This document shows positions 8,406 through 32,100 of a stretch of DNA of 59,876 bases, in pieces. The notes below the pieces were generated by a model. The model was given only the letters and a program-made list of their open reading frames with translations. It did no database searches and had not been told where the DNA came from. Every line of letters starts with the position of its first letter. The first letter of the stretch is position 1. Position numbers and translations under genes: made by a program. The DNA comes from Paracoccus sp. (in: a-proteobacteria) (GTDB taxonomy: Bacteria > Pseudomonadota > Alphaproteobacteria > Rhodobacterales > Rhodobacteraceae), in contig JAUNTZ010000015.1 of assembly GCA_030538425.1 (NCBI GenBank), positions 1 to 59,876 on the forward strand, given 5' to 3'.

Positions 8406-9575
8406 TTAAATATCAACCACCCCCTCACGACACGCGCGGGCGATGATGATTTCCTCATTCGTGGGGATCGCCATGACATGCCCTCGCGAGACCTCCGAGG
8501 ACAGGATCACCGCGTTTTCGGCATTGCGGCTATGGTCGATCTCAAAGCCCATCCACTCGGTCCGCTCACAGACGCGGGCGCGGATCAGGGCGGAGTTCTC
8601 ACCGATCCCGCCGGTAAAGACCAGCGCATCGACCCCGCCCATCGCCGCCGCCATGGCGCCCAGTTCGCGCTGAATGCGAAAGACGAAATAGTCGATGGCC
8701 TGCCGCGCCTCGGGGCTGTTTGATGCCTCAAGCGTCCGCATATCGTTCGACAACCCGCCCGAAAGCCCCAGCAGGCCCGACCGTTTGTAAAGCAGGTCCG
8801 AGATGGCGGCGGCGTCCATCCCCTCATGATCCATCAGATATAGCATCACGCCCGGATCAAGCTGGCCACAGCGGGTTCCCATCGGCAAGCCGTCCAGCGC
8901 CGAAAACCCCATCGTCGAGGCGACCGAGCGACCGCCCTGGATCGCGCACATCGACGCGCCATTGCCCAGATGCGCGACCACGACCCTTCCATCCGCAATC
9001 AGCGGCGCGATGCGGCGCAGCTCGCCCGAGATATAGTCATAGCTCAGCCCGTGAAAGCCATAGCGGCGCACGCCCGCCTCATACATCTGGGGCGGCAGGG
9101 CGAAAGTGTCATTGACCCAAGGCTGATGGCGGTGAAACGCCGTGTCGAAACAGGCGATTTGCGGCACGCCCGGAAAGGCCGCGATGGCGGCGCGGATACC
9201 GGCCAGATTATGCGGCTGATGCAGCGGCGCAAAGGGTGCCAGCGTCTCCAGCCGCGCCATCACCGCCTCATCGAGCTGCACGGGCGCATCGTAAAACGTG
9301 CCGCCATGCACGACGCGATGCCCGACCGAGACGACGCGCAGACCCGGCAGATGCGCGCCCAACGCGTCGAGCACCGCCGCAACCGCCTCGCCATGATCGG
9401 CGGGGCTGGCGGTGGTGGGCAATCCCGCGCCGCTGGCGGATTTCAGCGACAGCGCGGCCTGCCCCTCGCCCAGCCGCTCGGCCTTGCCCGAGACCAACAG
9501 CGACAGATCAGCGGCATCATAAAGCGCCACCTTGACCGAGGACGACCCCGCATTCAGAACCAATATCGCCCGCAT
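8406..9575 (-). CDS. ackA: acetate kinase
   Basis: Converts acetyl phosphate and ADP to acetate and ATP. The 389-aa protein begins MRAILVLNAGSSSVKVALYD, the ASKHA phosphate-binding strand with the conserved Asn. It also contains SVGHRVVHGG, HLGNGASMCAIQ, DTTMGFSALDG-like SVASTMGFSALDGLPMGTR, and FTGGIGENS near the C-terminus. ATG 9575 is chosen because GGAGGG lies 5 nt upstream; the preceding stop and this ATG share one base (TGATG). It is the last gene of the pta-like operon. Its first 72 bases or so also form part of the 134-bp tandem repeat. Confidence 0.97.
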   Translation of the reverse strand: MRAILVLNAGSSSVKVALYDAADLSLLVSGKAERLGEGQAALSLKSASGAGLPTTASPADHGEAVAAVLDALGAHLPGLRVVSVGHRVVHGGTFYDAPVQLDEAVMARLETLAPFAPLHQPHNLAGIRAAIAAFPGVPQIACFDTAFHRHQPWVNDTFALPPQMYEAGVRRYGFHGLSYDYISGELRRIAPLIADGRVVVAHLGNGASMCAIQGGRSVASTMGFSALDGLPMGTRCGQLDPGVMLYLMDHEGMDAAAISDLLYKRSGLLGLSGGLSNDMRTLEASNSPEARQAIDYFVFRIQRELGAMAAAMGGVDALVFTGGIGENSALIRARVCERTEWMGFEIDHSRNAENAVILSSEVSRGHVMAIPTNEEIIIARACREGVVDI

Positions 9576-9709
9576 CACTCCCTCCACCGCAGCGCGGAAT
9601 CATAAAGCGAAGCCACCGCCCAAAAGGCCAGCCGCGACAGATCAGCAGCACCACATAGCGCCACTTCGACCGAGGACGCCCCCGCGTTCAGAACCAATGT
9701 CGCCCGCAT
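9575..9709 (-). CDS. chimeric mini-ORF B (AckA N-terminus fused to Pta C-terminus), 44 aa
   Basis: An open 44-codon frame created by the junction repeat. It starts MRATLVLNAG (AckA-like), passes through ADLS, and ends in a Pta-like tail (AVASLYDSALRWRE). The ATG at 9709 shares a base with the stop of mini-ORF A (TGATG), is preceded by GGGAGGGG, and its own stop overlaps the ackA ATG the same way. Many changes from AckA alter residues (SSS to ASS, Y to C), so purifying selection on the peptide is not evident. The frame may persist only to carry ribosomes from pta to ackA. Expression as a peptide is unproven. Confidence 0.45.
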   Translation of the reverse strand: MRATLVLNAGASSVEVALCGAADLSRLAFWAVASLYDSALRWRE

Positions 9710-9843
9710 CACCCCTCCCACCGCAAGGCAGCATCATAAAGCGAGGCCACCGCACAAGAGGCCAGCCGCGACAGATCAGCGGCACCACACAGCGCTACCT
9801 TGAACGACGACGCCCCGGCATCCAGAACCCATATCCTCCGCAT
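9709..9843 (-). CDS. chimeric mini-ORF A (AckA N-terminus fused to Pta C-terminus), 44 aa
   Basis: The sister of mini-ORF B, directly after the pta-like gene. It begins MRRIWVLDAGASSFKVAL and ends LYDAALRWEG, the latter identical to the true Pta tail. The ATG 9843 shares its A with the pta stop, with a GGAGGGG Shine-Dalgarno upstream. The catalytic Asn of AckA (VLNAGSS) is Asp here, and the rest of the kinase is absent, so it cannot be an acetate kinase. It is either a relic that keeps coupling intact or a small peptide gene; the sequence does not decide. Confidence 0.45.
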   Translation of the reverse strand: MRRIWVLDAGASSFKVALCGAADLSRLASCAVASLYDAALRWEG

Positions 9844-11225
9844 CACCCCTCCCACCGCAGCGCGGCATCATAAAGCGAGGCCACCGCACAAGAGGCCAAC
9901 CGCGACATTGCGCTGTCAGAGCGTGAGTTCAGGATGACCGGCACAAGCGCGCCCAGCACCAGCCCCGCGCCCTCGGCATGGCTGATGAAGGCAAGCTGTT
10001 TGGCCAGCATATTGCCCGCGTCGATCCCCGGCACGACAAGGATATTGGCGCGCCCCGCAACCTCACCGCGCAGGCCCTTGGTGCGGGCGGCGCCCAGATC
10101 GACGGCGTTATCCATCGCCAGCGGGCCATCGACCTGCCCGCCGGTGATCTGGCCGCGCTCGGCCATTTTGGAGAGCAGCGCCGCGTCGATTGAGGACTGG
10201 ATCGCGGGGTTGACGGTCTCAACCGCTGACAGAACGCCCACACGCGGCTCAAACCCGATGGCCGCGCTCAGGTCGATGGCGTTTTGCACGATATCCATCT
10301 TGGTGGCCAGATCGGGGGCGATGTTGATGGCGGCATCGGTGACGATGACGGGCTCGGGGCGGCCCGGTACATCCATCACGAAAACATGGGTAAAGCGGCG
10401 TCCCCGGCGCAGGCCCGTGGCCTTGTCCAGCATCGGGCGCAGCAGATCGTCGGTATGGAGATGCCCCTTCATCACCGCGCCCGCCCGCCCCTCATGGACC
10501 AGCGCGCAGGCCCGCGCGGCGGCGGCGCGGTCGCCCGCAACGGCGATGATCTCGACGCCGTCCAAGGTCTCGCCCAGCTCTCCCGCGGTGGCGCGGATGC
10601 GGCTCTCATCACCGATCAGGATGGGGGTGATGATGCCCTCATCCCGCGCGCGCAAAGCGCCGCCCAGCGATTTGGGATCGGTCGGGCAAACCACGGCGGT
10701 CGCCAGAGGCGGCCGGGTGCGGGCGCGTTCGACCAGAGTCTCAAAATGGCGATGCCGTTCGACGATCAGGCCGGGCAGCTGGACGCCGTCCATGTCGAAC
10801 CGCGCCGTGGGCGCCTGCACCACCGCCTCACCCTCAACGATGAGCGCGCCGTCGCTGACCCGGCGGACCTCGGTGGCAAGCGTCAGGCAGCCATCCTCAT
10901 GCCGCGCGGTGACGGTGACGCGGCACACCACCTCATCGCCCGCATTCGCGCGGTCGTGAAAACTCAGGCTCTGGCGGCGATAGAGGGTTCCGGGGCCCGG
11001 CAGCCGCATCCCCAGCACCGCCGAGATGATCGAGGCCAGATAGATGCCGGGCGCATATTGTTCGGGCTGGCCGTCGCCGTCGCCGTCATATTCAGCCAGA
11101 TGCATCGGGTTGTAATTGCCCGAGACATTGGCAAAGACCAGCAGATCGTCGGTGGTGATCAGCCGCCGCAATTCGGCGCGGTCGCCGACCTCGATTTCCG
11201 AAAAAACACGATTGACCAGATGCAT
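9843..11225 (-). CDS. bifunctional MaoC-like hydratase / phosphate acetyl(butyryl)transferase
   Basis: The 460-aa protein joins an N-terminal MaoC/hot-dog domain (residues ~1-145; YNPMHLAEYD, FHDRANAGDEV) to a C-terminal PTA_PTB domain (~150-460; VCPTDPKSLGGALRARDEGIITPILIGDE, MKGHLHTDDLLRPML, NILVVPGIDAGNMLAKQL). This matches proteins annotated as bifunctional enoyl-CoA hydratase/phosphate acetyltransferase in Rhodobacterales. With ackA it would turn acyl-CoA into acyl phosphate and then acid plus ATP, or the reverse. Whether the acyl group is acetyl, butyryl or another is not determined by the sequence. Start 11225 (MHLVNRVFSEIEVGD) fits the domain. The divergent 229-nt region to the exonuclease gene shows no clear promoter. 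Confidence 0.92.
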   Translation of the reverse strand: MHLVNRVFSEIEVGDRAELRRLITTDDLLVFANVSGNYNPMHLAEYDGDGDGQPEQYAPGIYLASIISAVLGMRLPGPGTLYRRQSLSFHDRANAGDEVVCRVTVTARHEDGCLTLATEVRRVSDGALIVEGEAVVQAPTARFDMDGVQLPGLIVERHRHFETLVERARTRPPLATAVVCPTDPKSLGGALRARDEGIITPILIGDESRIRATAGELGETLDGVEIIAVAGDRAAAARACALVHEGRAGAVMKGHLHTDDLLRPMLDKATGLRRGRRFTHVFVMDVPGRPEPVIVTDAAINIAPDLATKMDIVQNAIDLSAAIGFEPRVGVLSAVETVNPAIQSSIDAALLSKMAERGQITGGQVDGPLAMDNAVDLGAARTKGLRGEVAGRANILVVPGIDAGNMLAKQLAFISHAEGAGLVLGALVPVILNSRSDSAMSRLASCAVASLYDAALRWEG

Positions 11226-11454: not shown

Positions 11455-12468
11455 ATGACCGCCCCTCGCCCGCCTTTGCTGACCCGCCCCGAGGGGCTTT
11501 ATTGTCCGGCGGGCGATTTTTACATCGACCCGCTGCGCCCGGTTGCGCGTGCTCTGATCACCCATGGCCATGCCGATCACGCGCGGGCGGGTCATGGCGC
11601 GGTGCTGGCCACTGCGCAGACGCTGGACATCATGGCTATCCGCTATGGCGAGGATTTCACCGCCAGCCGCCAGATTGCGGGGCCGGAGCCCCTGCGCATC
11701 GGTGACGCAACCGTCAGCTTCACCCCCGCGGGCCATGTGCTTGGCTCGGCCCAGATCACGGTTGAGGTGGCGGGCAGGCGGATCACCGCCTCGGGCGATT
11801 ACTCACGCGTGCCGAACCCCGCCTGCGCCGCGTGGGAGCCCGCGCCCTGCGACATCTTCATCACCGAGGCGACCTTTGGCCTGCCGGTCTTTCGCCACCC
11901 CGACCCACGGACCGAGATCGCCAAGCTGATGGCCAGCATCACCGCCTTCCCCGAACGCGCGCATCTGATCGGCGCCTATGCGCTTGGCAAGGCGCAGCGG
12001 GTGATCATGCTTCTGCGGCAGGCGGGTTGGGACGCACCGATCTATATCCACGGCGCGCTGCAAAAGCTGTGCGATTACCATAGCGCGCAGGGCGTCCCCT
12101 TGGGTGATCTGCGCCCCGCCACGGTCGCGCGGGGGACCAAGGCGGATTACGCGGGCCAGATCATCCTTGGCCCGCCCTCGGCCTTTGCGGCAGCATGGGC
12201 GCAGCGCTTCCCCGACCCGGTGATCGGTTTCGCCTCGGGCTGGATGCAGGTCCGGGCGCGGGCGCGGCAACGGGGGGTCGAACTGCCGCTGATCATCTCG
12301 GATCACGTCGATTGGCCGGACCTGACCCGCACCATTTCGGAACTGGACCCGTCCGAGGTCTGGGTCACCCATGGCCGCGAGGATGCGGTGATCCGGTGGT
12401 GCGAGATCGAGGGCCGCCCGGCCCGCCCCCTGCATCTGGCGGGCTATGAGGACGAACCGGATGCGTGA
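11455..12468 (+). CDS. ligase-associated DNA exonuclease (metallo-beta-lactamase/beta-CASP)
   Basis: The 337-aa protein resembles mRNA 3'-end processing nucleases (CPSF73/SNM1-type). The metal motif is HGHADHARAGHG (residues ~33-44), with a second GDYSRVPNPA region and later metal ligands in FITEATFGLP and SDHVDWPDL. It is the first gene of the four-gene set found with a PP_1105-type ATP-dependent ligase in many proteobacteria and thought to act in DNA-damage repair. The stop lies inside ATGCGTGA, which also contains the ATG of a mini-ORF, and its last ~16 codons are copied 133 bp downstream. Confidence 0.93.
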   Translation: MTAPRPPLLTRPEGLYCPAGDFYIDPLRPVARALITHGHADHARAGHGAVLATAQTLDIMAIRYGEDFTASRQIAGPEPLRIGDATVSFTPAGHVLGSAQITVEVAGRRITASGDYSRVPNPACAAWEPAPCDIFITEATFGLPVFRHPDPRTEIAKLMASITAFPERAHLIGAYALGKAQRVIMLLRQAGWDAPIYIHGALQKLCDYHSAQGVPLGDLRPATVARGTKADYAGQIILGPPSAFAAAWAQRFPDPVIGFASGWMQVRARARQRGVELPLIISDHVDWPDLTRTISELDPSEVWVTHGREDAVIRWCEIEGRPARPLHLAGYEDEPDA

Positions 12469-12686
12469 CTTCGCCCGCCTTCTGGAACAGCTTGCCTTCA
12501 CCCCGCAACGCTTGGGCAAGGAGCGCCATCTCGCGCGCTTCTTCGCCGGCCCGGCCCGCCCGCTGCATCTGGCGGGCTATGAGGACGAACCGGATGCGTG
12601 ACTTCGCCCGCCTTCTGGAACAGCTTGCCTTCACCCCGCAACGGCTGGGCAAGGAACGCCATCTGGGGCACTTCTTCGCCAGCCAG
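12421..12686. repeat. two tandem 133-bp units at the exonuclease/ligase junction
   Basis: Unit 1 is 12421-12553 and unit 2 12554-12686. The first ~90 bp differ at about one position; the last ~10 bp no longer align because there unit 2 is the native ligase sequence. Each unit contains the exonuclease C-terminal codons, the ATGCGTGA stop/start overlap and the ligase N-terminal codons. The likely breakpoints, GCCGCCCGGCCCGCCCCC (exonuclease) and GCCAGCCAGCCCGACCCC (ligase), are similar GC-rich stretches. The higher identity than at pta/ackA implies a more recent event. Confidence 0.95.
12461..12601 (+). CDS. chimeric mini-ORF (ligase N-terminus fused to exonuclease C-terminus), 46 aa
   Basis: An open frame created by the 133-bp duplication. 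It begins MRDFARLLEQLAFTPQRLGK, the ligase N-terminus, and switches after ARFFAG to the exonuclease tail PLHLAGYEDEPDA. Its ATG overlaps the exonuclease stop by 8 nt (ATGCGTGA) and its stop overlaps the true ligase ATG at 12594 in the identical 8-nt context. The arrangement therefore inserts one extra short cistron between two coupled genes without breaking coupling. It lacks any ligase catalytic residue. Whether the peptide accumulates is unknown. Confidence 0.45.
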   Translation: MRDFARLLEQLAFTPQRLGKERHLARFFAGPARPLHLAGYEDEPDA

Positions 12687-14150
12687 CCCGACCCCGAACG
12701 CGGGCTGGCGCTTGCCGCGCTGACCGGCGACCTGCGGCTGCGCGCTGTCACGCCCTCGCTGCTGCGCGGGCTGACGTCCGAGCGGGTGGATGCCGAGCTT
12801 TTCGCGCTGTCCTATGATTTCGTGGGTGATCTGGCCGAGACCATCGCGCTGATCTGGCCTGCGGGGGGCGAGGCCGACCCGCCGCTTGCCGAACTGGTCG
12901 AGGAACTGGCCCACACGCCCAAAGCCACCCTGCCCGCCGTGATTGCGGCGCGGCTGGACGGGTTGGGCGTGTCCGAACGCTATGCCTATCTGAAACTGGC
13001 CACCGGCGCGCTGCGGGTCGGGGTCTCGGCACGGCTGGCGCGCAATGCCTTTGCCAACTGGGCCGCCCTGCCCCTGAGTGAGGTTGAAGAGATCTGGCAC
13101 GGCCTGACTCCGCCCTATCTCGACCTCTTCGCATGGGCCGAGGGCGCGGAGCGACCTGAATCCGCCGCCCATGCGCCATTCCGCCCGGTCATGCTCTCCA
13201 CCGCGACCGATCTGGACGCGCTGCGCGGGCTGAGGCCCGCCGATTACGCCGCGGAATGGAAATGGGACGGCATCCGCGTGCAGGCGGTCAGCGACCGGGG
13301 CACGAAACGGCTCTATTCCCGCACCGGTGAGGATATCAGCGCGGCCTTCCCCGACGTGATCGCGCTGATGGATTATGACGGCGCGCTTGACGGCGAATTG
13401 CTGGTCCGGCGCGGTGAGACCGTCGCGCCCTTCGGGGATCTGCAACAGCGGCTGAACCGCAAGACGGTCAGCGCGGCCATGCTGCGCAGCCATCCCGCCG
13501 GGCTGCGGCTTTACGATGCGCTGATCCGCGACGGGCGCGACCTGCGCGACCTGCCCTATGACGCGCGCCGCGCCGAACTGGCGCAGGTGGTCGCGGGGCT
13601 GGATGCGCGCATCGACCTGTCGCCCGAACTGCCCTTCGCGACATGGGACGAACTGGCCGCCCTGCGCGCAGGCCCCCCCGATGCGGTGATCGAGGGTGTG
13701 ATGATCAAACGTCGCAACAGCATCTATCAGGCGGGCCGCATCAAGGGGCCGTGGTTCAAGTGGAAGCGCGACCCGATGGTGATCGACGCGGTGCTGCTTT
13801 ACGCCCAACGCGGCCATGGCAAGCGGTCGGGCTATTATTCGGATTTCACCTTCGGGGTCTGGGACGAGGGCCATCTTGTGCCCGTCGGCAAGGCCTATTT
13901 CGGCTTTACCGATGCCGAGCTGCGCGAGCTGGACCGTTTCGTGCGCAACAACACGACCGAACGCTTTGGCCCGGTCCGCGCGGTTGCGCCGACCAAGGTG
14001 GTTGAGGTCGCCTTTGAGGGGCTGAACCGCTCGACCCGCCATAAATCGGGCGTGGCCATGCGCTTTCCGCGCATCTCGCGCATCCGCGATGACAAGCCCG
14101 CCGCTGAGGCCGACCACCTGGCAACCCTCATCGCGATGCTGCCGGAATGA
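12594..14150 (+). CDS. ATP-dependent DNA ligase, ligase-associated repair cluster (PP_1105 type)
   Basis: The 518-aa protein has an N-terminal DNA-binding region (1-190), then the nucleotidyltransferase core with AEWKWDGIRVQ (KxDG; Lys is the adenylation site, about residue 223). Further motifs are YSRTGEDISAAFPDV, LDGELLVRRG, EGVMIKRRNSIYQAG and WFKWKRD, followed by an OB-fold with VEVAFEGLNRSTRHKSG. It seals nicks using ATP, in addition to the essential NAD ligase. ATG 12594 is chosen; an upstream ATG at 12461 belongs to the duplicated chimeric mini-ORF, which hits a stop at 12601. The helicase gene overlaps its end by 4 nt. Confidence 0.96.
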   Translation: MRDFARLLEQLAFTPQRLGKERHLGHFFASQPDPERGLALAALTGDLRLRAVTPSLLRGLTSERVDAELFALSYDFVGDLAETIALIWPAGGEADPPLAELVEELAHTPKATLPAVIAARLDGLGVSERYAYLKLATGALRVGVSARLARNAFANWAALPLSEVEEIWHGLTPPYLDLFAWAEGAERPESAAHAPFRPVMLSTATDLDALRGLRPADYAAEWKWDGIRVQAVSDRGTKRLYSRTGEDISAAFPDVIALMDYDGALDGELLVRRGETVAPFGDLQQRLNRKTVSAAMLRSHPAGLRLYDALIRDGRDLRDLPYDARRAELAQVVAGLDARIDLSPELPFATWDELAALRAGPPDAVIEGVMIKRRNSIYQAGRIKGPWFKWKRDPMVIDAVLLYAQRGHGKRSGYYSDFTFGVWDEGHLVPVGKAYFGFTDAELRELDRFVRNNTTERFGPVRAVAPTKVVEVAFEGLNRSTRHKSGVAMRFPRISRIRDDKPAAEADHLATLIAMLPE

Positions 14151-30088: not shown

Positions 30089-30102
30089 GTTGCGAGGATG
30101 TG

Positions 30103-32100
30103 ATGCCAGACCAACCCGATCCGGGCCAACGATCTGCCGCGCCTCAGGGCGAGGGGGCGCCGTTGCGCGATGATGCCGCGACGGGGCGGCAGGCGGGCGG
30201 CGCTGTCCCTGCCCATGACCTGCCGGGTTATGGCGAAGGGGAATCGTCGCAAGGTGACACCGCAGCGGGGCGGCGAACGAGCGTCACGCCTGCCCCGAAC
30301 CCGCCGGAGCATGGCGAGGCGGCACCGTCGCGCGGTGATAGCGCAACGGGGCGCCGAACGGGAGGTGCCGCCCCTGCCCATGATCTGCCGGGTCATGGCA
30401 AAGGGGAATCGTCGCAAGGCGATACCGCGATAGGGCGACGAATAGGCGTCACGCCTGCCTCGAACCCGCCGGATCACGGTGAGGCGGCACCGTCGCGCGG
30501 TGATAGCGCAACTGGGCTGCGAACGGGGATTGCGCCTGACCCTGAGTCGCGCGACCACGGCGAGGTGGCATCGTCGCAAGGTGATACCGCGACGGAAGGC
30601 CGAACGGGTGCTGCCGCTGCGCCCGCCCCTGACCATGACCATGACCATGACCACGATCCTGCCTCTGATCCTGATCACGACGAAGCGACACCGACGCAGC
30701 ATCGCGCAGGCCAACTCGCGTCTCACCCGCAGCACCATGCCGCCCTGCCCTATGGCGCGACACGAAACATCCCCGTCCGCGTCCCACTGGCCACACGCCC
30801 GCTTGGCCTGATCGCTACCGCACGGGCTGCGCGGCGCAATCTGCTGGAGCTGATCCCCGCCATCGCGACCGAGCGCCCGATGATCTCGGCCAAGACCGCA
30901 ATCCGCTGGCATATGGTGATGGAGCCGCGTTTTCTGGAACATATCCTCAAGGACAATGTGGCCAACTATCCCAAATCGACGGTGACGAAATCGCTGCTGC
31001 GGCCCGCGATCGGCGAATCGCTGTTCATCGCTGAGGGCGCGGAATGGCGATGGCAGCGCCGCGCCGCAGCTCCGGCCTTCGCGCATCGCAATGTGACCGC
31101 CCTCGCCCCGGTGATGAGCGCCGCAGCCGAGGCCACCTCGGCGCGGCTGGCCCGCACGACCGGGCCGGTCGATCTCTATGCCGAAGCGATTGCGGCGACC
31201 TTTGACGTGATCTCGGACGTGACATTCTCGGGCAGCGAGGGGTTCGACCGTGCCGCCGTCCATCGCGCGATTGATGCCTATATCGCCCGCACCGCGCGGG
31301 TTTCGCTGATGGATGTGGCGGGCATCCCGGACTGGATTCCCCGCCCCTCGCGCATCTTTGGCGGGCGCGACCTGCGGCGGATGAAGGCCTTAGCGGATGA
31401 GGCGATTACCGCCCGCGCCGCCACCGGCCCGCGCATCCCGCCGGACCTTCTGGACCTGCTGCGCGCCGGTCAGGATGACGAAACCGGCCGCACAATGACC
31501 GAGGCGGAACTGCGCGACAACCTGTTAACCTTTATCGTCGCGGGCCATGAGACAACCGCGCTGACGCTGGCATGGGCGCTTTATCTCTGCGCCTTTGACG
31601 AGGCTGAGCAGGACCGCGCGAGCGCACAGGCGCGCGAGGTTCTGGGCGACCGCGTGGCCGGGGCGGATGATGTCGCGGCGCTTGATCTGACCGCGCGGAT
31701 CGTGAACGAATCGCTTCGCCTTTACCCGCCCGCCGCCTTTCTGTCGCGCACCGCCCGCGAGGCCGACCGGCTTGGCGCGCGCGAGATCCGGCCCGGCGAT
31801 ACGGTCATGCTGCCGATCTACGCGCTGCACCGCTCGAAGCTGCACTGGGACGAGCCGGACGCCTTTCGCCCCGCCCGCTTCGCGCCCGATGTGACCCGCG
31901 ACCGCTTTGCCTTCCTGCCCTTTGGCGCGGGGCCGCGCATCTGCATCGGGGCCAGTTTCGCGCTGCAAGAGGCGGTGATTATCTTGGCCACGCTGCTCGC
32001 GCGCCACCGCTTTGTCCTGACCGAGCGCCAGCCCGTGCCGCGCCTGATCCTGACGCTCCGCCCCGAAGGCGGCGTCTGGCTGCGGGTCACGCCGCGCTAA
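30103..32100 (+). CDS. cytochrome P450 with a repetitive N-terminal extension
   Basis: The 665-aa protein has a P450 core from about residue 220. Visible are the I-helix FIVAGHETTALTLAW, the K-helix ESLRLYPP (ExxR), and the heme-binding FLPFGAGPRICIGASFALQ with the axial Cys near residue 614. The core resembles CYP102/CYP4-like bacterial class enzymes without a reductase domain. Before it, residues 16-176 consist of six 26-28-aa repeats (GE-AP-RGDSATGRRTG type), then an Asp/His run (177-193). This extension is absent from ordinary bacterial P450s. ATG 30103 follows GAGGA. If translation began further in, the core would still be complete. Confidence 0.88.
   Translation: MPDQPDPGQRSAAPQGEGAPLRDDAATGRQAGGAVPAHDLPGYGEGESSQGDTAAGRRTSVTPAPNPPEHGEAAPSRGDSATGRRTGGAAPAHDLPGHGKGESSQGDTAIGRRIGVTPASNPPDHGEAAPSRGDSATGLRTGIAPDPESRDHGEVASSQGDTATEGRTGAAAAPAPDHDHDHDHDPASDPDHDEATPTQHRAGQLASHPQHHAALPYGATRNIPVRVPLATRPLGLIATARAARRNLLELIPAIATERPMISAKTAIRWHMVMEPRFLEHILKDNVANYPKSTVTKSLLRPAIGESLFIAEGAEWRWQRRAAAPAFAHRNVTALAPVMSAAAEATSARLARTTGPVDLYAEAIAATFDVISDVTFSGSEGFDRAAVHRAIDAYIARTARVSLMDVAGIPDWIPRPSRIFGGRDLRRMKALADEAITARAATGPRIPPDLLDLLRAGQDDETGRTMTEAELRDNLLTFIVAGHETTALTLAWALYLCAFDEAEQDRASAQAREVLGDRVAGADDVAALDLTARIVNESLRLYPPAAFLSRTAREADRLGAREIRPGDTVMLPIYALHRSKLHWDEPDAFRPARFAPDVTRDRFAFLPFGAGPRICIGASFALQEAVIILATLLARHRFVLTERQPVPRLILTLRPEGGVWLRVTPR
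30148..30636 (+). repeat. higher-order tandem repeat in the 5' part of the P450 gene
   Basis: Six ~82-bp units alternate between two types, giving a 165-bp superperiod. Landmark GGCACCG recurs at 30321 and 30486, and GAATCGTCGC at 30241 and 30406, both exactly 165 bp apart. Type-1 units encode GEAAPSRGDSATG, type-2 units GEGESSQGDTA. All unit lengths keep the reading frame. The protein repeats are hydrophilic, Gly/Ala/Pro-rich and probably disordered. Confidence 0.9.

Follow-up and report, generated by a model that had tools for sequence, protein, structure and literature searches.

The closest working analogues of the structure described here are the MIRUs (mycobacterial interspersed repetitive units), start-codon repeats, described as apparently mobile, in which a short open reading frame (ORF) is coupled to its neighbour by a stop/start overlap with -4 spacing and which are thought to insert with minimal effect on expression (PMC12548453). 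According to the same source, translational coupling is most efficient at spacings of -4 to +3 nt, and -1, -4 and -8 are enriched motifs. Two further systems concern origin. At sigH of Staphylococcus aureus, a 1210-bp tandem duplication between direct repeats is lost at high frequency and yields an active fusion protein (PMC3486894), and in beta-lactamase coding DNA direct repeats of 3-8 nt border the template of some de novo, reversible tandem repeats, for which a slippage model was put forward (PMC4169377). All comparisons with these papers refer to excerpts of them. Here, we report a tandem array at the junction of a pta-like gene with ackA in a 59,876-nt stretch of Paracoccus sp. DNA (contig JAUNTZ010000015.1, positions 1 to 59,876; hereafter the window), in which two short chimeric ORFs stand between two intact genes, together with similar arrays at six other junctions.

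The pta/ackA junction array

The genes concerned are read from the minus strand in the order pta-like gene, mini-ORF 1, mini-ORF 2, ackA. The pta-like gene (9843..11225, minus strand; 460 aa) matches PF01515 (PTA_PTB, E 2.2e-38) and carries an N-terminal MaoC domain (PF01575), ackA (8406..9575, minus strand; acetate kinase, 389 aa) matches PF00871 (Acetate_kinase, E 1.5e-114), and both are open over their full length. Across the junction lies a 134-bp array of 3.0 copies (9500..9907, minus strand), for which Tandem Repeats Finder (TRF) gives 86% matches, 0% indels and a score of 618, the highest among the six TRF rows of the window and not one to be put down to chance. A repeat search placed copies at 9490, 9624 and 9758, with spacings of 134 and 134 and 85% identity to the first copy. 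A first-pass annotation of the window had described three exact 134-bp periods; both methods agree on the periods, and their spacing is indeed exact, but the copies themselves have diverged. The two internal junctions form mini-ORF 1 (9709..9843, minus strand) and mini-ORF 2 (9575..9709, minus strand), each of 44 codons plus a stop. As that annotation had proposed, and as translations and alignments agree, both have an AckA-like start and a Pta-like end: the first 85-86 nt align without gaps to the head of ackA and the last part to the tail of pta. Every boundary in the array is a TGATG with a 1-nt overlap, joining mini-ORF 1 to the pta stop and mini-ORF 2 to the ackA start, and has a GGAGG-type run (GGGAGGGG or GGAGGGAG) just upstream, so that the Shine-Dalgarno sequences and stop/start overlaps claimed for each mini-cistron are seen in the sequence. 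Of the 132 sites compared between the two mini-ORFs, 24 differ, so the array is not, as might have been feared, a recent duplicate made in assembly. Neither the copy-to-copy nor the automatic indel measure (below) finds a net indel in this array.

The ends of the repeated unit coincide with a short homology. A breakpoint microhomology search found a 12-mer in the Pta tail (9896..9907, minus strand) that is identical at 11 of 12 positions, and in codon register, to a 12-mer in the AckA head (9494..9505, minus strand). In a single-copy arrangement the two share their codon phase and are separated by 135 minus the 1-nt overlap, that is 134. Judged from the sequence, a pair at exactly 134 bp is what a short-junction tandem duplication leaves behind. 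Tail and head have another sequence in common, a perfect in-register match of 16 bp (CGCTTTATGATGCCGC) at distance 84, which is a further potential duplication site.

We favour, with a probability of about 0.6, an account in which slippage or unequal exchange between the Pta-tail 12-mer and its near-copy in the AckA head would have duplicated the junction, with a further step giving three units. Neither gene is damaged, since the unit has one end within pta and the other within ackA. The codon register of the shared 12-mer makes every extra junction a chimeric mini-ORF, one that runs from the ackA start signal to the pta stop and overlaps the next start. Ribosomes that finish pta at TGATG might then re-initiate on mini-ORF 1, on mini-ORF 2 and finally on ackA. 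The cost of the duplication would be two short peptides, with both enzymes kept; this passage of ribosomes to ackA would make the duplication near neutral and allow it to persist. Duplications of this kind break neither gene and probably keep ribosomes flowing, and the copying accident probably does little harm. On this account the lineage would gather such duplications throughout its genome, with survivors where nothing is broken: at the 3' ends of genes, inside genes if the frame is kept, or at junctions between genes that lie close together.

Further junction arrays and their relation to described systems

A second junction array, absent from the first-pass annotation, lies in the same window (12416..12695, plus strand; 133 bp, 2.1 copies). 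Its single mini-ORF (12461..12601, plus strand; 46 codons plus a stop) has a ligase-like start and an exonuclease-like end and overlaps its neighbours at both ends by the 8-nt ATGCGTGA. Upstream is a gene for a metallo-beta-lactamase-fold (MBL) protein (11455..12468, plus strand; PF12706, E 1.7e-05, 24.9 bits, under the curated cut-off of 27), which we take to be a ligase-associated exonuclease, and downstream an ATP-dependent DNA ligase gene (12594..14150, plus strand; PF01068 and PF04679). None of the three mini-ORFs of the window has a Pfam match.

Four more junction arrays were found in our sample of the same genome, which amounts to 969,959 b (36% of a genome whose completeness is 86.6%, window included): cobU/cobT (L078), response-regulator/kinase (L169), rnfC/rnfD (L188) and folB/folP (L177). 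The nearest relative sampled, G048 (1,117,405 b examined), has one, at exbD/tonB (L099), with copies that are 100% identical. Pfam was searched with pta, ackA, the MBL-fold protein and the ligase; the names cobU/cobT, rnfC/rnfD, folB/folP and exbD/tonB, like the response-regulator/kinase, aroC, apbE, HAD, serA and P450 labels used here, are presumed from translations. The rnfC/rnfD and folB/folP arrays share the pta/ackA layout of about three units and two overlap-chained mini-ORFs; at the response-regulator/kinase junction the units are fused as one 141-codon chimera that runs from TGATG to TGATG. Spacings are -1 (TGATG) at pta/ackA, an 8-nt overlap at MBL/ligase, ATGA at folB/folP and +4 at exbD/tonB. 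The rnfC/rnfD junction provides an independent check on the origin of the arrays: a shared motif, ATC-TGAGACGGCGG, is spaced 161 bp, and the present period is 140 because 21 nt were deleted from the mini-ORF. At exbD/tonB a 9-nt motif, read by eye, is common to both breakpoints.

With both parental genes intact and a chimera at the novel joint, the units are by origin short-junction duplications like that at sigH, as far as the excerpt describes it: there too the novel joint sets the start of the downstream gene on the upstream gene, intact copies flank it, and breakpoint homology at the unit distance is found here at pta/ackA and rnfC/rnfD. They differ from the sigH case in that each unit is 133-253 bp, copies differ by up to about 14-18%, and stop/start overlaps chain the units. 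Direct repeats border the duplicated template as in the excerpted beta-lactamase work, in which the repeats are intragenic, whereas ours cross gene junctions and have diverged copies. The co-directional genes and overlap motifs are those described for coupled -1, -4 and -8 junctions, to which pta/ackA, MBL/ligase and folB/folP belong by spacing, the difference being one or two extra mini-cistrons between the genes. With MIRUs, the units share a short ORF that overlaps the start and stop codons of flanking genes. This likeness in working geometry (PMC12548453) is what would favour a dispersed MIRU-type mobile cassette inserted at stop/start overlaps, an explanation that we regard as extremely improbable. 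A family of that type would be expected at many unrelated loci, and MIRUs are described with -4 spacing, whereas the spacing here is -1, -4, -8 or +4, and every unit was copied locally from the junction at which it stands and is built from the genes on either side. A genome-wide search with 268 bp of the pta/ackA array found nothing beyond the array itself, and the seven units, searched against 2.09 Mb of the two genomes, matched their own junction or its ortholog, plus stray hits of 21-34 nt only. MIRU-like mobility was therefore rejected and the units, not being dispersed in the sequence searched, are not filed as MIRUs. Among the matches listed from the open-licence PubMed Central literature, we recognised no description of junction-spanning tandem duplications that chain coupled mini-ORFs.

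Array load across genomes

Arrays were counted at a TRF period of at least 60 and a score of at least 100. This gave 23 in our genome sample and 14 in G048, or 22 in 969,959 b and 13 in 1,117,405 b once one CRISPR array each (L180 and L131, assigned by eye) was dropped. There were none in 400 kb from four other congeners (100 kb each, that of G007 with 8,000 N) and none in 796,245 b from 43 named loci around ackA in assorted Proteobacteria, one of which (L033) is G048's own record. With L033 left out, the chance of finding zero in these controls at the two observed rates is 2.7e-12 and 1.2e-6. The density sample was drawn without G060, possibly a close relative as judged by its RnfD. The comparison of the junction in related genomes that the first-pass annotation had proposed gave a uniform answer: 72 of 72 other loci lack a tandem repeat at the ackA start (62 have a Pta-like match, some genomes counting twice), and loci were extracted from 29 of the 58 other genomes in which AckA was matched. 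Likewise, no tandem repeat was found in any of the 15 rnfC/rnfD loci scanned, from 22 other genomes with any RnfD match. Arrays recur at seven junctions and, of the genomes sampled, occur in two.

As a possible cause of this load, the presence of five proteins was compared in seven genomes, and none separates high-array from zero-array genomes. RecA, MutS and AddA are present in all seven and RecJ in six, being missing only from the zero-array G007, so both high-array genomes have all four. Ku occurs in two of the seven; it is lacking in both high-array genomes and in G060, and equally in G015 and G046, which have zero arrays.

Besides the seven junctions, arrays occur inside long frames, at gene 3' ends (after aroC, apbE, a HAD gene and a serA-like gene, for example) and in intergenic DNA. 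Classed by eye from frames filtered by third-position GC (GC3), the 35 arrays comprise 7 at junctions, 15 untranslated and 10 within ORFs, and three stand outside the indel counts (L157 2457-3330, L162 19171-19426 and L125 16977-17146). TRF periods are multiples of three in 10 of 10 in-ORF arrays versus 3 of 15 untranslated ones. At sites of these kinds a tandem duplication leaves every gene unbroken.

Several individual arrays deserve mention. In the window, an in-frame array with a period of 165 (and 81) at 30148-30595 (plus strand) forms an N-terminal extension of a presumed P450-like ORF (30100-32100). The array of L157 consists of about 8.5 diverged copies (about 100-106 bp) of a gene 3' end, many with the stop codon context, and has the highest copy number found. 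The two CRISPR arrays (L180 9221-9851 in our genome and L131 2231-2808 in G048) have unrelated repeats, and several repeat-spacer units of L131 have themselves been duplicated as a block (period 305). Unit lengths of long arrays in our genome seem clustered at about 133-140 and 158-160 bp, possibly through a detection bias of TRF.

Selection, rival explanations and implications

Six of the seven junction arrays are in phase now (pta/ackA 134, MBL/ligase 133, response-regulator/kinase 425 in total, rnfC/rnfD 140, folB/folP 158 and exbD/tonB 253), and cobU/cobT becomes the seventh once the subsequent loss of 1 nt close to its end is discounted. A 1-in-3 null, which would give p = 0.0005 for seven of seven, was rejected because short direct repeats fall in register through codon periodicity. 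Within genes 66-89% do so; at 262 ordinary co-directional junctions in the two genomes the figure is 58-72% for exact repeats with a minimum length of 7 to 12 nt, and these measured fractions were used instead. The first-pass annotation had taken the coupling-preserving length of the unit as selected; given these fractions, such lengths are mostly supplied by the mutation process, and in-phase arrays are weak evidence of selection.

Nor did two other proposed signs of selection hold up. The absence of stops had been read in this way, yet 55-75% of simulated frames stay open after 14-20 random substitutions per mini-ORF (our own estimates, with 60% transitions), and a copy of the HAD 3' end that lies beyond the stop codon is open too, though untranslated. 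Amino-acid drift had been read likewise, but dN/dS is informative neither way. The proposed codon-level test between units gives mini-ORF to mini-ORF ratios of 0.42, 0.21 and 0.44 in three arrays against 0.48 for the untranslated HAD copy and its parent, a weak control in that it includes the parent's own selection and that the other HAD copy is out of register (1.05-1.11). Ratios of mini-ORFs to parents range from 0 to 1.24 on 16-29 codons. The untranslated value of 0.48 led us to reject any claim that the amino acids are under selection, and, in line with the first-pass annotation, our data give no evidence for the peptide as such. We think it very unlikely that these frames code for small proteins with a function or for forerunners of new genes. 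In favour, each is open and has a start signal, and the ratios between mini-ORFs span 0.21-0.44; the ratio of the untranslated copy, the lack of Pfam matches in the window and the differences between the peptides of different junctions argue against it.

Indels bear on translatability as well. By hand count, the mini-ORFs have lost 12 and 9 nt at rnfC/rnfD, 12, 9 and 15 nt at folB/folP, and 9 nt plus 1 nt beside the stop at cobU/cobT, so that six of seven indels are multiples of three; for net indels of the untranslated arrays the figure is 1 of 12 (p = 0.0017, a value that mixes mini-to-parent with copy-to-copy events). The count leaves out gaps past the joint, where alignment is poor, and takes adjacent 9- and 3-nt rnf gaps as one; the 9-nt folB/folP gap comes from mini-ORF 2 only, and the second rnf mini-ORF has 4 nt out and 1 nt in where the 3-nt gap sits. 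Polarity was checked at rnf and fol: in relatives the ends of RnfC, FolB and FolP are full-length, which places these deletions in the mini-ORFs.

Other results weigh against our proposal of duplication, ribosome hand-over and near-neutral persistence, and several of them suit a pure mutational relic, that is, neutral debris whose phase and openness reflect codon-register microhomology and the rarity of stops in GC-rich DNA, with no selection for translation. Relative to the mutational null, in-phase arrays are in marginal excess (p 0.02-0.10). Copy-to-copy frameshifts number 1 per 142 mismatches in junction arrays versus 11 per 383 in the 15 untranslated arrays (p = 0.20), and a uniform automatic measure, in which some events are counted from both sides of an array, finds multiples of three in 8 of 12 versus 7 of 24 indels (p = 0.07), with in-frame gaps in untranslated arrays too. 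The end of the cobU/cobT mini-ORF is frameshifted, its stop falling a few bases upstream of the next start, and breakpoint homology at the period was found for three of the seven junctions but not for cobU/cobT, folB/folP, MBL/ligase or response-regulator/kinase. The in-register fraction at ordinary junctions (0.58-0.72), the probability of no stop (0.55-0.75) and the dN/dS at two of three arrays (0.42 and 0.44, near the untranslated 0.48) likewise fit a relic. The lean of the indels towards multiples of three, by either count, fits it less well, as does the rnf junction, where RnfC ends in TAATG and both mini-ORFs in TGATG: the stop changed, in one direction or the other, and the overlap stayed. 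We regard the relic as possible without thinking it probable. The selection for translatability suggested in the first-pass annotation has the support of the hand-counted indels and gains no significant support from the frameshift rates and the uniform measure; because the latter gives p = 0.07, frame keeping by selection in the mini-ORFs is suggestive only.

Expression tuning, in which each re-initiation step lowers AckA relative to Pta, or raises it through its own Shine-Dalgarno sequence, and copy number is selected, would explain why every unit retains its own Shine-Dalgarno-like run and start and why the pta/ackA, rnfC/rnfD and folB/folP arrays all have about three units. We consider it unlikely, as similar arrays stand at functionally unrelated junctions and at untranslated 3' ends, and the ackA start is free of tandem repeats in the 72 other loci screened. 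Our preferred reading, local duplication with ribosomes handed through the mini-ORFs to ackA, can also be put in a bolder form that seems doubtful to us, rather more so than the relic: the lineage would be both duplication-prone and duplication-retaining, tightly spaced operon junctions would repeatedly become chains of coupled chimeric mini-cistrons, in frame at birth by codon-register microhomology and kept so by selection for uninterrupted ribosome flow, and new translated small ORFs could in general be added between the genes of an operon by this route, with no transposon involved.

These observations suggest how tightly packed operons can tolerate tandem duplication. Defined junctions that carry one, two or three coupled units form a natural series in which chains of re-initiation could be measured. 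Codon periodicity in GC-rich DNA biases microhomologies, and probably duplications too, towards in-frame chimeras, which are a possible supply of new small ORFs. Finally, the contrast between the two high-array genomes and their sampled relatives makes the cause of this accumulation of duplications testable.

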